Positions 24,008 through 28,814 of a DNA stretch of 64,000 nucleotides are shown in pieces. A model generated the notes under the pieces. The model was not told the origin of the DNA, made no database searches, and saw nothing but the letters and a program-made list of their open reading frames with translations. Position 1 is the stretch's first letter. Each line of letters opens with the position of its first letter. This DNA is from Rhizobium oryzihabitans (GTDB taxonomy: Bacteria > Pseudomonadota > Alphaproteobacteria > Rhizobiales > Rhizobiaceae): assembly GCF_010669145.1 (NCBI RefSeq), contig NZ_CP048632.1:1240001-1304000 (forward strand). The letters run 5' to 3'. A program made the translations under genes and the position numbers.

Positions 24008-24038
24008 TCCGCCTGGCAATACCTCGAACGAACCCCTC

Positions 24039-24066
24039 TTGCATTAACCGCGAATCGTACTACCTT
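24039..24066 (+). promoter_or_regulatory. Candidate promoter of the 24-codon ORF
   Basis: TTGCAT at 24039-24044 and TACCTT at 24061-24066 are spaced by 16 bases and resemble -35 and -10 boxes. Transcription would start near 24073, about 30 bases before the small ORF. Confidence 0.4.
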
Positions 24067-24102
24067 CTAGTTATGTTCAACGTATCGGAAGGAGGTGATC
24101 CA

Positions 24103-24177
24103 ATGTCTAATGAGATTTCGGTCTCTGGTGCAGGCAATGGAAAGGGTGGGTTTTCGACGGGGCAGCCCTCGGCGTAA
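24103..24177 (+). CDS. 24-residue peptide ORF with near-complete Shine-Dalgarno
   Basis: ATG at 24103 and TAA at 24175-24177 enclose 24 codons (MSNEISVSG..., ending TGQPSA), Gly/Ser-rich, without a membrane helix. Directly before the ATG, AAGGAGGTGATCCA at 24089-24102 is complementary over 14 bases to the 3' end of bacterial 16S rRNA, far beyond the usual 4-7. A promoter-like pair precedes it and two stem-loops follow, so the whole looks like a short, independent mRNA of about 200 nt. It could make a small protein, act as a ribosome-capturing RNA, or be an RNA regulator with an embedded ORF. I do not recognise the peptide. Confidence 0.55.
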   Translation: MSNEISVSGAGNGKGGFSTGQPSA

Positions 24178-24211
24178 AAACCTCTTGCCTTCGGAACGTT
24201 GAGAAACAGTC

Positions 24212-24267
24212 CCGGGTCTGTAAACAGGACCAAGCTCATGGAAGGGTCGCCTCTGGCGGCCCTTTCC
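24212..24267 (+). terminator. Two stem-loops ending the small transcript
   Basis: First a small stem GGTCTGT-AA-ACAGGACC near 24214-24231, then GGAAGGGTCGCC at 24240-24251 pairing with GGCGGCCCTTTCC at 24255-24267. The second is a strong hairpin but has no run of Ts directly after it, so it is a probable rather than certain terminator. Confidence 0.55.
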
Positions 24268-24413: not shown

Positions 24414-25451
24414 TTATTTGCGGAAAATCTTCCACCGTGTCGGCCGGAAGCGCAGTTCGGCACCCACTGCGACGGCGGCGTTGAGCGGCACCTCGATTTC
24501 AAGGTGATAGGGCTCGTGGCCATTATTGGCGATGTCGATTTCCGCGATGCGCGTGCCGGCGAGGCGACGACAGGTGGTGACCTTGCCGTAAAGCGCGTCC
24601 TTCTCCGCCGTCAGCGCCACATCTTCCGGACGGAAGAAAAGCACGCCCTCGCCATCGCCGCTCTCATCGATACCGATGCTTTCCCCCTGAAACAGCACAT
24701 GGCGTTCACGGATCGTTACCGGCAGGCTTGAGGATTCGCCGATGAAGGAGAAGACGAAGGGGGAATTGGGCGTGTCGTAGACGTCATCCGCCGTGCCGAC
24801 CTGCTCGATCCTGCCCTGGCTCATGACGACGACACGGTCGGCCAGCTCCAACGCTTCTTCCTGATCGTGCGTAACGAAGACGGTGGTGTGGCCGGTGCGG
24901 TCGTGGAATTCGCGCAGCCAGCGGCGCAGCTCCTTGCGCACCTTGGCGTCGAGCGCGCCGAAAGGCTCATCGAGAAGCAGCACCTTCGGCTCGATAGCGA
25001 CCGCGCGGGCAAGCGCCACGCGCTGGCGCTGGCCGCCGGAAAGCTGCGTGGGATAGCGCTTTTCGAGACCGGAGAGATGCACCATGTCGAGAAGCTCGGA
25101 TACCCGTCTGCGGATTTCGGCCTTTGGCGGACGCTTGGCGGAGGGACGCACCTTGAGGCCGAAGGCGATGTTTTCCGCCACCGTCATGTGGCGGAATAGC
25201 GCGTAATGCTGAAAGACAAAACCGACATTGCGTTCCTGCACCGTGCGGTGCGAGGCATCCTCATCGCCAAAGAAAATGTGGCCTTCGGTCGGCTGCTCCA
25301 GGCCGGCGATGAGGCGCAGCAGCGTCGTCTTGCCGGAGCCGGAGGGACCGAGCAGCGCGATCAGCTCACCGGAACGAATGTCGAGCGACACGTCGTTCAG
25401 CGCCGGAAAGCGATCGAACTGCTTGGTGATGCCGGAAACTTTCACTTCCAT
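24414..25451 (-). CDS. cysA: Sulfate/thiosulfate ABC transporter ATPase
   Basis: A 345-residue ABC ATPase energising sulfate import. Walker A is [11 protein letters not shown] near residue 35, Q-loop [13 protein letters not shown], signature [15 protein letters not shown], Walker [15 protein letters not shown]-loop [10 protein letters not shown]; a TOBE-like C-terminal domain follows. Start ATG at 25451 lies 11 bases after the cysW stop, with AAAGG upstream; a TTG five codons earlier is less likely. Last gene of sbp-cysTWA. Confidence 0.93.
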
Positions 25452-25462
25452 GAATATGCCTT

Positions 25463-26332
25463 TCAATGCTTGCCGGCTGCGTTGCCCGCGCCAAAGCGTA
25501 TTTCGAGAATGGTTTTGAGAACGAGCGTCACGAGCGCCAGACCGGCCAGCAGCGTCGCCACCGCAAAGGCAGCACCGATATTGTACTCATTATAGAGTAT
25601 CTCGACATGCAGCGGCATGGTGTTGGTCTCGCCGCGAATATGGCCAGACACCACCGAGACCGCGCCGAACTCACCCATGGCGCGGGCGTTGCAGAGCAGC
25701 ACCCCATAGAGCAGGCCCCATTTGATATTCGGCAGCGTGACATACCAGAAGGTCTGCCAGCCCGAAGCACCAAGCGAAATCGCCGCCTCCTCGTCGCCAT
25801 TGCCCTGATCCTGCATCAGCGGGATCAATTCTCGCGCCACGAAAGGAAAGGTCACGAAGATGGTGGCAAGCACGATGCCGGGAACGGCGAAGAGGATTTC
25901 GATGCCGTAACCCTTCAGCCATGGCCCGAGCACGCTGTGCGAGGAGAACAGGATGACATAGACCAGACCGGATATGACCGGCGAGATCGAGAACGGCAGG
26001 TCGATCAGCGTTATCAGAAACGCCTTGCCCTTGAATTCGAACTTCGCGATTGCCCAGGCGGCGGCAACCCCGAAAATGAGGTTGAGCGGCACCGAAATGG
26101 CGGCGACAAGCAGCGTCAGACGGATGGCGGAGAGCGCGTCGGGTTCGACGATCGCCTCCCAGAAGGCGTCGGCGCCTTTCCGGAAGGCTTCGAAAAACAC
26201 CGATACCAGCGGCAGCACCAGGAAGGCCGCAAGAAAAAGGAAGGCGACGGCGATCAGCGCCAGCCGGGCTGGCAGGCTCTCGCTGGCGGGATCACGGAAG
26301 GGCCGGGCAGACGTGCGGGAAGCGTCAGACAT
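25463..26332 (-). CDS. cysW: Sulfate ABC transporter permease CysW
   Basis: A 289-residue permease with about six membrane segments. The binding-protein-dependent transport loop is [30 protein letters not shown] (EAA motif), where it contacts CysA, and [29 protein letters not shown] is typical of CysW. It overlaps cysT by 8 bases, which suggests coupling. Confidence 0.93.
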
Positions 26333-27182
26333 AACCGTACCTCTTGCGGCTCCAGGCCTGAATGAGATTGATGAGGAACAGCATGGCGAAGGAGATGATC
26401 AGCATGATGGTGGCAATGCCGGTCGCGGCCGCATAGTTGAACTCCTCCAGCCGGATGACGATGAGGAGCGGCGCGATTTCCGAGACGTAGGGAATATTGC
26501 CGGCGATGAAGATGACCGAGCCGTATTCGCCGACGCCGCGTGCGAAGGCGAGCGCGAAACCCGTGAGAATGGCGGGCGTCAGGCTCGGCAGCAGGACGCG
26601 GGTGATGGTCTGGAAACGGTTGGCGCCAAGCGTCGCCGCCACCTCTTCCACCTGCCGGTCAATCTCTTCCATGACCGGCTGCACGGTGCGGACCACGAAT
26701 GGCAGGCCGATGAAGATCAGCGCAATGACGATGCCGGTCGGCGTGAACGCGATCTTGATGCCGAAAGGTTCGAACAGCGAGCCGACCCAGCCGCGATTGG
26801 CATAAAGCGTGGTGAGCGCGATGCCGGCGACCGCCGTTGGCAGGGCGAAGGGCAAATCCACGATGGCATCAACGAAGCGGCGGCCGGGAAAACGATATCG
26901 CGTCAGAACCCAGGCGACGATGACGCCGAAAACCGCATTGACCAACGCGGCGAGAAATGCCGTGCCGAAACTGACACGCAGCGCATTCAGCGTGCGGCTG
27001 TCGGTGGCGATCGCAATGAAATCTGAAAAACCCAGTTTCGCCGTGGACCAGATGAGGCCGCCCAGCGGAATAAGAATGATGAGAAACAGATAGGTTACCG
27101 TGTAACCAAGCGTCAGGCCGAAGCCGGGTATTACGCTCGACTGACGCCACTTCCACCTGTTTCCGGATGTATTATTGCTCAT
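26325..27182 (-). CDS. cysT: Sulfate ABC transporter permease CysT (CysU)
   Basis: A 285-residue permease. Six predicted helices start at [20 protein letters not shown]. The EAA loop is [31 protein letters not shown] and [26 protein letters not shown] is the CysT-specific segment. ATG at 27182 has GGAGCC in front; the TTG just upstream is not needed. It forms the channel with CysW. Confidence 0.93.
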
Positions 27183-27204
27183 CAAGGCTCCGGATAATCT
27201 TTAG

Positions 27205-27257
27205 TTTAACGCATTTCCAGACAGAAAACCGGGGTCCAGTTTTCCTGGAAATGCTCT
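27205..27257. repeat. Common rhizobial GCATTTCCAG intergenic repeat
   Basis: TTTAACGCATTTCCAG at 27205 and CTGGAAATGCTCT at 27245 are inverted copies around CAGAAAACCGGGGTCCAG. The pattern is one I associate with a frequent intergenic repeat in Rhizobium and Agrobacterium. It lies in the sbp-cysT gap. Confidence 0.55.
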
Positions 27258-27291
27258 CTGGGAGCCGGTGTTCCCCGGCCTTGTTATAAAG

Positions 27292-27319
27292 GATCGACCG
27301 GCATGGTGTCCGGTCGATC
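27292..27319 (-). terminator. Hairpin between sbp and cysT
   Basis: GATCGACCGG at 27292-27301 pairs perfectly with CCGGTCGATC at 27310-27319; on the minus strand it is followed by CTTTATAA. It could partly terminate or protect the sbp mRNA so that the abundant binding protein is made in excess of the permeases. Confidence 0.6.
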
Positions 27320-27378
27320 GAGCTGCTGTTATTCTGCTTCCCTTTCGGGCGGGCAATCTCTTTCAGCCCATCATCCGC

Positions 27379-28404
27379 TTACTTGGCGGGCTTGTAAATC
27401 TGGTCGAAGATGCCGCCATCACCGAAATGTTCAGGCTGCGCCTTGGCCCAACCGCCAAACTGCGGATCGTCGATGGTGACAAGCTTGATATCGGGCAGCT
27501 GCTTGAGCAGATCCTTGTTGACCACAGCCGGGTTCGACGGACGATAGAAGTGCTTCGCCGCGATATTCTGGCCTTCGTCGGAATAGAGATATTGCAGATA
27601 GGCTTCCGCCACCTTGCGGGTGCCCTTGGCGTCGACATTGGCGTCAACCACGGCGACCGGCGGTTCGGCAAGGATCGAGATCGGCGGAACGACGATATCG
27701 AAGGCGTCAGCGCCGAATTCCTGGCCGGCGAGATAGGCCTCGTTTTCCCAGGCCAGCAGCACGTCACCGATCTGGCGCTGTGCGAAGGTGACCGTGGAGC
27801 CGCGGGCGCCAGTATCGAGAACCGGGGCGCGCTTGTAGAGTTCGCCGACATAGGCCTTGATCTTGTCCTTGTCGCCCTTGAACTCTTCATTGGCCCAGGC
27901 CCAGGCGGCAAGGTAGTTCCAGCGTGCGCCGCCCGAGGTCTTCGGGTTCGGCGTGACGATCTGGATGTCACCCTTCACCAGATCGCCCCAATTATGGATG
28001 CCCTTGGGGTTGCCCTTACGGACCAGGAACACGATGGTGGAGGTGTAAGGCGAGGAATTATGCGGCAGGCGGGAGCGCCAGTCCTTGTTGATCTTGCCAG
28101 AATTTTCGACAATGGCGTCGATATCGCTCTGCAGCGCCAGCGTCACCACATCCGCTTCCAGACCGTCGATGACAGAACGCGCCTGCTTGCCGGAGCCGCC
28201 ATGCGACTGCTGGATGGTCACATCCTCACCCGTGTCAGCCTTCCACTTCTTGGCGAAGGCCTCGTTGAAATCCTTGTAGAGTTCGCGGGTCGGATCGTAG
28301 GACACATTGAGAAGCTTGGTCTGTGCAACCGCCGAACCAACGCCCCCCAATGTCAGGGACAGGCCGAGAGCGACAGCGCTCAAACCGGACAGAAACTTGG
28401 ACAT
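27379..28404 (-). CDS. sbp: Periplasmic sulfate-binding protein
   Basis: A 341-residue periplasmic binding protein of the Sbp/CysP family. A signal peptide of about 28 residues ends SAVAQ. The mature start [20 protein letters not shown] is the family hallmark, as are [48 protein letters not shown] and the late [10 protein letters not shown]. The strong ribosome binding site GGAGGG precedes the ATG at 28404. First gene of sbp-cysTWA; its promoter TTGACC-N16-TAGAGT encloses an inverted repeat. Confidence 0.93.
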
Positions 28405-28432
28405 CGGTATTCCCTCCTGATTGCGATGGCTT

Positions 28433-28455
28433 AACTCTACCGGTTGAGTAGAGTT
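28433..28455 (-). promoter_or_regulatory. sbp promoter with operator palindrome
   Basis: On the minus strand TTGACC and TAGAGT are spaced by 16 bases. Between and overlapping them lie AACTCTAC and GTAGAGTT, perfect 8-bp arms with a 7-base centre. A repressor bound here would block RNA polymerase. The half-site TCTACCGGTT recurs as TCTACTGGTT just before the Rrf2 gene (29261-29270, minus). Confidence 0.7.
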
Positions 28456-28814
28456 GGTCAATGAGGCTGAATACGATCGAAAAAGTGTTTCCCGAGAGCG
28501 TTTCCCCGGGCAACAAATACAGCGCAGCATAAGCGAAAGGCGCAACAAGCGTCGTGTAAAACTTTGCTGAATGCAAAAGCATTTCACATTTTTGACGATT
28601 TTTTACGCTGACGGCGAAAAATATTATGGGGTTTTAGACGATTTTTTCGTCGGGCAGTGCGAGGGGATGGGAGAGACGATCAGCACAGGGCTGTCCGTTC
28701 AGCGGGCTCAAGCTCAGGGTAGACACGGCGCACCCTGTCCCTCCCCTCATTCCTGTGCTTGTCACAGGAATGAGGGGAGGGAACAGCTGGCGCAGGCCAA
28801 ATGCCGCCGAGCGG
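28456..28814. other. Gap between sbp and the Rrf2 gene
   Basis: No gene seen. It holds the upstream part of the sbp promoter region, a T-rich stretch at about 28587-28650 with GACGATTTTTTCGTC that may end transcripts from the Rrf2 side, and the solo repeat palindrome at 28742-28778. Confidence 0.5.
28742..28778. repeat. Family A repeat reduced to a single perfect hairpin
   Basis: TCCCCTCATTCCTGTG and CACAGGAATGAGGGGA are perfect 16-bp arms around CTTGT. The arms equal the outer tips of the full family A element, so this is either a solo relic of a full copy or the elementary unit. Confidence 0.8.

Follow-up and report, generated by a model that had tools for sequence, protein, structure and literature searches.

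Two questions are raised by the locus described here, namely why a reading frame of only 24 codons should be preceded by a Shine-Dalgarno (SD) sequence that matches 14 bases of the 16S rRNA 3' end, and whether its conserved output is a peptide, an RNA or translation itself. The locus lies on the forward strand of the window, i.e., the whole stretch of DNA analysed, 64,000 nucleotides of Rhizobium oryzihabitans contig NZ_CP048632.1. A sequence-only reading of the window had proposed it as a candidate for an undescribed small-protein mRNA or for a dual-function RNA that titrates ribosomes or anti-SD sRNAs.

Layout of the unit and its Shine-Dalgarno sequence

The conserved transcription unit was delimited by blastn and by an alignment of 30 genus loci (from 39 genomes matched), and it occupies positions 24035..24267 (+). 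Mean identity to the window base is 0.85-0.98 within this block and 0.40 and 0.43 in its flanks. The block was matched by blastn in 39/39 genus genomes, with both the SD and the ORF conserved; the earlier reading had named lack of such conservation as grounds for rejecting it. Its picture of a unit that stands alone, with an exceptional SD and a real mini-ORF, is borne out. By position and conservation, a putative RpoD-type promoter is placed at 24039..24066 (TTGCAT at 24039-24044, 16 nt, TACCTT at 24061-24066), and transcription would then start near 24073. The 5' UTR (24073..24088) contains a conserved TTCAACG and is followed by the 14-base SD AAGGAGGTGATCCA (24089..24102) and by the 24-codon ORF MSNEISVSGAGNGKGGFSTGQPSA (24103..24177; ATG at 24103, TAA at 24175-24177). 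At the 3' edge stands a terminator-like GC hairpin, GGAAGGGTCGCC..GGCGGCCCTTTCC (24240..24267), paired in all 42 rows of an alignment of Rhizobiaceae that had been trimmed at the CCCTTT of this hairpin; the U-tract is poor in the window and reads CCCTTTT in relatives. The promoter-like boxes and the GC hairpin both fall within the conserved block, but a simple consensus scan picked up neither a promoter nor a terminator at the locus.

The 16S 3' end, recovered in 1/39 genus genomes, reads GGCTGGATCACCTCCTTTC, and all 14 bases of AAGGAGGTGATCCA are complementary to it; the duplex predicted for 24087-24101 has an energy of -27.5 kcal/mol. Contiguous 16S complementarity amounts to 14 bases at the sORF versus 3-7 bases upstream of 51 window ORFs of at least 120 aa (called mechanically as the longest non-overlapping frames and compared generously, with up to 6 starts each). 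The proposed 14-base complementarity immediately before ATG 24103 was thus confirmed. The assembly (5.86 Mb), in which the 16S copies themselves are apparently not readable, contains AAGGAGGTGATCC once, and a search of the window with the 14-mer at up to 3 mismatches gave 12 matches versus 4.5 expected, one of them exact. An antisense 16S fragment was considered and ruled out, because the match extends no further than the start codon and the unit shows conserved edges of its own. Contiguous pairing of 14 bases is not universal, as an extra A interrupts the SD (GGAAGGTGATCC) in 37/60 Rhizobiaceae loci.

Such an SD could simply serve as a decoy, in which the RNA would sit on the 16S 3' end, titrate free 30S subunits or damp initiation, and use its ORF merely for recycling. 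That many members throughout the class are almost fully complementary to the 16S tail, and that the duplex is strong, would suit this explanation, yet it needs neither the maintained frame of 14-36 codons nor the helix P1 described below, transcripts from a single gene would have to become as abundant as ribosomes, and the extra A breaks the contiguous match. We therefore consider a decoy improbable. CCUCC-type sRNAs are common in Alphaproteobacteria, and a perfect SD near the 5' end might equally act as a sponge or target for such anti-SD regulators. The conserved match, however, continues through GATCC, which would fit the 16S end over CCUCC-type sRNAs, and the chance we give to a sponge is smaller still, even though pairing of this general kind is reported from Caulobacter, where the available text describes sRNAs SisA-D, which have in common a 10-mer bearing an anti-SD signature and which pair with the sRNA CrfA (PMC12559287).

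Distribution in Alphaproteobacteria and links to CC2171 and SEP1

How far the RNA extends was assessed with sequence patterns. The motif GRAAGGAGGTGATCC-N-DTG-TC was found in 39/289 genomes of the class (a reversed-pattern control gave 0), and the exact motif in 33/249 genomes of a phylum sample, all of them among the 67 alphaproteobacterial genomes (the own, family, order and class rows of the sample table; 33/67) and none among the others (0/182). In the family, 41/297 genomes contain the exact 14-mer together with an ATG at most 8 bases away, and at least one of these hits is unrelated: a hit before a 31-aa ORF (L048, MAKSKCGCK...) is counted in this figure and absent from later sets. A motif scan of named genomes matched at least 119 stretches. 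Among the 80 matches listed, the labels are presumably Alphaproteobacteria or broader (one 'Proteobacteria bacterium'), and we take the genera represented there to include Mesorhizobium, Bradyrhizobium, Methylobacterium, Sphingomonas, Novosphingobium, Gemmobacter, Brevundimonas, Phenylobacterium, Roseococcus and Azospirillum, with others. A query with the extra-A SD matched 60/199 family genomes (several in short pieces only, a few of these covering the terminator or the GGCAGCCC hairpin alone), so a genome without the exact motif is not necessarily one without the RNA. No match was found among 50,697 phage records, and a phage origin was ruled out on this basis.

The locus set used below has to be read with its origin in mind. 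As 140/198 loci (115/148 non-redundant) were gathered by SD-containing patterns, conservation of the SD among them is by construction; the blastn sets and the covariance-model set, whose model itself includes the SD, give less biased views. The loci are also related by descent, hence p-values overstate. One locus (L276) was omitted for want of a regex match, and four duplicates were left out of the SD-energy and extra-A analyses. Azospirillum-type loci (L140 from Azospirillum sp. B21, L181, L209) carry the SD motif before ORFs of 56-59 codons, with a start that resembles a signal peptide by eye and an ECSSSH/DCSSSH/ECSGSH stretch; these probably represent another gene, for a small exported protein, or else a fusion of the RNA to such a gene, and were retained in the 148-locus counts.

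The RNA has a catalogued relative. All six loci tested (6/6) align end to end (1-159) to RF01867, the Caulobacter sRNA CC2171, with 35-47 bits and E-values of 2.6e-7 to 2.6e-4, against an Rfam gathering cut-off of 75 bits; at that threshold no RF01867 hit was found within the window. The window stretch scored 35.2 bits, and the match in the genome labelled G000 has an E-value of 1.9e-5. Judged by alignment, we regard the window locus as a homologue of RF01867 which, because 35.2 bits lies under the cut-off, is not a member by Rfam's rule. A Brevundimonas locus reached 86.1 bits, and a search of the class returned matches from 90.5 to 22.6 bits in 45/190 genomes, 7 of them above the cut-off and the weakest possibly due to chance, so that a chain of intermediate scores joins the members above the cut-off to the window locus. 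An SD-like site with a start codon is present in 29/30 loci retrieved from the covariance-model set, of which the SD is part of the model. The RF01867 consensus likewise reads GAAAGGAGGUGAUCCA-GUG-UCU and runs through a 22-codon frame to UAA, with a helix between the start-proximal and pre-terminator segments and a final hairpin, as in the window RNA. Therefore, the SD and mini-ORF of the window RNA are also present in a family that is catalogued as an sRNA. Six genomes (G341, G368, G396, G474, G489, G504) gave two RF01867 matches each, which suggests second copies of the RNA in some lineages, though most of the second matches are weak.

Two Bradyrhizobium loci scanned matched RF01867 (44.5 and 28.3 bits) and gave no RF02353 match. 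BjrC68 (RF02353) had been tried as a Bradyrhizobium version of the RNA and was rejected, as it matched just the 3' part of two loci (L053, L025). In the accessible part of a study of Mesorhizobium huakuii, RF01867 is the family given to the candidate sRNA MH_s33, and 34/35 predicted non-riboswitch sRNAs have RNA-seq products, the exception being MH_s6 (PMC5596092). For Caulobacter, the portion of a Ribo-seq study available to us reports ncRNA regions, mostly intergenic, as untranslated as a group, and two previously predicted ncRNAs as translated (PMC4117421). This counts against a simple account of a translated RNA; CC2171 may belong to either group.

The second link leads to a small protein. 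The Sinorhizobium meliloti orthologue (CP090106.1) encodes MSNEISDLVMDMGEVKESRQPSA, 23 aa with a pI of 4.18; a pI of 4.13-4.23 is found in 3.9% of random 23-mers. It lies at the orthologous position, since two upstream ORFs are shared with the window (354/593 and 204/302 identities), by eye of the EAL/GGDEF and quinone-oxidoreductase types, the S. meliloti record naming a 'GGDEF domain-containing protein'. According to the consulted sections of Hadjeras et al. 2023 (PMC10117765), SEP1 has 23 aa and a pI of 4.18, is conserved in Rhizobiaceae, shows the top translation efficiency (TE) of 54 unannotated sORFs, and was detected by Ribo-seq, as a tagged protein on a Western blot and by 1 PSM. By length, pI and range, the S. 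meliloti orthologue is probably SEP1, as described there; the window locus shares with it the conservation in Rhizobiaceae and the same two upstream genes. The locus can hence no longer be called undescribed: its orthologue fits SEP1, and its RNA is homologous to the catalogued RF01867. In the literature, as far as the sources were accessible, neither the SD nor the frame was found described, and no connection between CC2171 and SEP1 was found either.

A reading frame that is kept while the peptide drifts

None of the 148 non-redundant loci contains an in-frame stop before codon 13, whereas such early stops occur in 50 loci in frame +1 and in 62 in frame +2, and in 145/148 the stop falls between codons 13 and 36. 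The same holds for the 33 loci not found by the SD pattern, with 0 early stops versus 15 and 12 in the other frames. The set was restricted to ORFs below 60 codons; when 184 SD-plus-start sites were rescanned with no restriction on length, the ORFs had 14-59 codons. This maintenance of the frame, together with the published Ribo-seq and Western blot of the probable orthologue, identifies it as a translated frame.

The encoded residues behave differently. In the same 26 genomes, the ratio of nonsynonymous to synonymous change (N/S) was 1.08 for the sORF versus a median of 0.05 (maximum 0.30) for the neighbouring gene, cysA by eye, sampled as 34 overlapping 23-codon windows; 4/30 genus loci were excluded from this comparison as their cysA was not codon-aligned. 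Silent divergence (pS) was 0.105 in the sORF versus 0.446 in cysA. As raw proportions, N/S was 0.71-1.07 in 7/8 clades (0.71-0.94 in six of them), 0.48 in the remaining one (Bradyrhizobium 14-mers, 5 sequences) and 0.86-1.05 in three Rhizobiaceae subgroups; since these carry no correction for multiple hits and lie below 1 in several clades, a weak constraint on the peptide may exist. Peptides are alike within orders, and those of different orders have little in common past the first residues. Thus, nucleotides are constrained while codon meaning is not visibly so, and purifying selection on amino acids, as expected of a functional small protein, was not seen.

These data bear on the most conventional explanation, that of an ordinary small-protein mRNA whose peptide of 14-26 aa (SEP1 in S. 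meliloti) is functional and whose SD ensures high expression. The open frame with its narrow range of lengths, the likeness of peptides within orders, the low N/S of the Bradyrhizobium 14-mers and the reported translation of the orthologue (in the consulted part of PMC10117765) all speak for it. It is opposed by the N/S values of the 7 clades and three subgroups and by the contrast with cysA, by the scant similarity of peptides between orders, and by the silent sites, which are as constrained as the others and therefore indicate selection at the RNA level. We consider this explanation unlikely, although not negligible. Of the small-protein mRNA or dual-function RNA first proposed, the real mini-ORF stands, possibly with a dual function, while N/S of about 1 disfavours a functional peptide.

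Near the end of the ORF lies a hairpin, CGGGG-CAGC-CCTCG (24158..24171 (+)), placed there by RNAalifold, paired in all 42 rows and nearly invariant. This hairpin (GRGGCAGCCCTCG) and its equivalents (codons GAG/GGG CAG CCC TCG) show little silent change in Rhizobiaceae, and a similar GGCAGCCC occurs 3' of the stop in Rhodobacter-type loci; from its sequence, the element looks conserved as RNA rather than as peptide.

RNA structure, neighbourhood and a proposed ribosome-gated RNA

Three features extend the earlier view of the locus, namely the spread across the class, a helix here called P1, and a cis anti-SD. In P1, codons 3-5 pair with the bases directly 5' of the terminator. In the window, its 5' strand ATGAG (codons 3-4, 24110..24114 (+)) pairs with the 3' strand CTCAT (24235..24239 (+)), immediately 5' of the terminator hairpin. 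The strands are GTGAT/ATCAC in another Rhizobiaceae group (L041, L056), CATTGTC/GACAATG in a Brevundimonas-type locus (L133) and CATGG/CCATG in sphingomonads (L100). Across 143 loci, a locus's own strands pair at 5.5/6 positions or more in 36% of cases versus 2% for swapped strands, and own exceeds swapped in 46/52 distinct 5' hexamers (Wilcoxon p 4.9e-9, on loci that are related). Five of the 148 loci were omitted from this test and from the post-stop anti-SD test below, and 1/148 from the test that runs from codon 9 to the terminator, for lack of a usable terminator window or of sufficient length.

In the Rhizobiaceae alignment (42 rows), pairing holds in 100% of cells for P1, for the CAGC-loop hairpin that closes the ORF and for the terminator, and in 80% for the SD helix, but variation in the first three is too small for a proof of pairing. 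Percentage paired, cells with both sides changed (7 vs 2.2) and the covariation score exceeded those of all 500 shuffles, while the 2 pairs changed on both sides were reached by 248/500 shuffles and the 13 further pair types by 487/500. P1 is absent both from the RNAalifold consensus (covariation term -1.13) and from the minimum free energy (MFE) fold of the window RNA.

The SD itself has a potential partner within the RNA. In the MFE fold of the window RNA, bases 24088-24095 pair with 24184-24192, within the segment ACCTCTTGCCTTC (24180..24192 (+)), just 3' of the stop and opposite the SD; in the same fold ACGTTGA (24196..24202 (+)) is the partner of TCAACGT in the 5' UTR (24077-24083). RNAalifold likewise sets the SD opposite the post-stop CCTTCC. 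Against dinucleotide shuffles, pairing of the SD with the downstream RNA from codon 9 to the terminator gave a mean z of -1.24 ± 0.10 (SE, n = 147), and an upstream control stretch gave +0.15. The post-stop region only, which was tested before the range was widened, gave a weaker signal (mean z -0.51, n = 143). Loci with a GGAAGG-type SD usually have CCTTCC as the post-stop element, and predicted energy favours a locus's own SD type in 18/23 and 28/37 loci. The window itself is not a strong case: one test showed no advantage of its own SD:anti-SD pair over shuffles (z -0.42), another that took in the 5' UTR gave z -1.61, the central SD bases 24093-24098 have ensemble probabilities of 0.7-0.97 of being unpaired, and the whole RNA folds with modest stability (z -1.50, 11/200 shuffles as good). 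Both P1 and the cis anti-SD are thus modest, statistical signals within single clades. Since P1 and the SD helix cross, they would form a pseudoknot or exclude each other. The internal anti-SD changes both its sequence and its location between loci, but the SD departs little from the complement of 16S; therefore, the fixed partner of the SD is probably the ribosome.

In two Rhodobacter-type loci (L103, L090) the stop and the terminator are separated by a stretch that nearly repeats the 16S 3' tail (CCACCTCCTTAA), and the SD has an unpaired probability of 0.11 in both.

A mini-ORF and alternative structures before a terminator resemble an attenuator, and the RNA might accordingly be the leader of a downstream gene; when 22 other loci were surveyed using a crude ORF caller, a co-directional ORF indeed came next in 8/22. 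In the same survey the next ORF lies on the opposite strand in 13/22 and is absent in 1/22, with no downstream neighbour that recurs by eye, and the neighbour is convergent in the window (cysA, - strand), in S. meliloti (DUF3750) and on two Rhizobium plasmids. As no conserved co-directional downstream gene was found, the leader is largely refuted and we regard it as very improbable. The convergent neighbour in the window belongs to a sulfate ABC transporter-like cluster (24414-28587 (-); by eye cysA, two permeases and a substrate-binding protein). On the two plasmids, of Rhizobium tumorigenes and R. rhododendri (L243, L246), the RNA lies on a replicon of 304-337 kb, flanked by a gene with a PAS domain and by one for a diguanylate cyclase/phosphodiesterase; an EAL/GGDEF-type gene is close to the RNA in the window and in S. 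meliloti too.

A frame that is kept but free of content, a structured RNA and the lack of a downstream target fit a switch that is read by the ribosome. Our best explanation, which we put forward tentatively and at somewhat less than even chances, is that the locus encodes a ribosome-gated regulatory RNA whose conserved output would be translation and not the peptide. The locus would be a monocistronic gene for a structured RNA of about 195 nt, the representative in Rhizobiaceae of an RNA that is homologous to CC2171/RF01867 and widespread in Alphaproteobacteria. The sequences support a near-maximal 16S complementarity on the start codon and a frame of 14-36 codons that is kept both open and short. 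With no ribosome bound, the SD would be at least partly masked by the cis anti-SD and P1 could form. A free 30S subunit would outcompete the anti-SD by means of its longer 16S duplex, and the ribosome would then translate the sequence-neutral mini-ORF, its passage and termination opening P1 and the anti-SD. A terminating ribosome would, we infer, cover the post-stop anti-SD and so leave the SD free for the next one. Because no conserved downstream gene was found, the output would act in trans, through RNA stability, base-pairing of the freed segments or 30S titration.

A bolder form of the ribosome-gated reading, which we hold to be doubtful though possible, extends it to the class as a ribosome-sensing RNA. 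There, the SD and, in many clades, the RNA's own imitation of the 16S tail would compete, free 30S would tip the switch, the content-free mini-ORF would hold it open, and the freed segments would act in trans. If the ribosome-gated reading is true, the RNA would be a regulator that stands alone and responds to the availability of ribosomes, in which the 'sRNA' CC2171 and the 'small protein' SEP1 are one object. One alphaproteobacterial RNA family would tie regulation to the act of translating, without a leader role or a selected peptide, and sORFs found by Ribo-seq should then be taken as proteins with caution. Caulobacter and Sinorhizobium could in that case provide a direct test of whether cells use RNA to monitor free 30S subunits.

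Among the closest known systems, RF01867 differs from the locus in being filed as an sRNA gene, with neither function nor ORF recorded in the part of its entry consulted. SEP1 is treated as a small protein, and the SD, the RNA structure, the class-wide spread and the CC2171 link are absent from its description in the available text (PMC10117765). According to the same partial source (PMC10117765), rnTrpL/peTrpL of S. meliloti is similarly a small translated RNA with an attenuator mini-ORF, but it is leaderless, derives from the trp attenuator and encodes a functional 14-aa peptide, whereas the window RNA has a maximal SD, no downstream operon that we found and no conservation of the peptide. 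SisA-D and CrfA of Caulobacter, likened here by their description in the portion of the report at hand (PMC12559287), offer a possible parallel in regulation through SD/anti-SD-like pairing; SisA-D, however, are anti-SD RNAs, while the window RNA carries an SD and has an anti-SD within itself.
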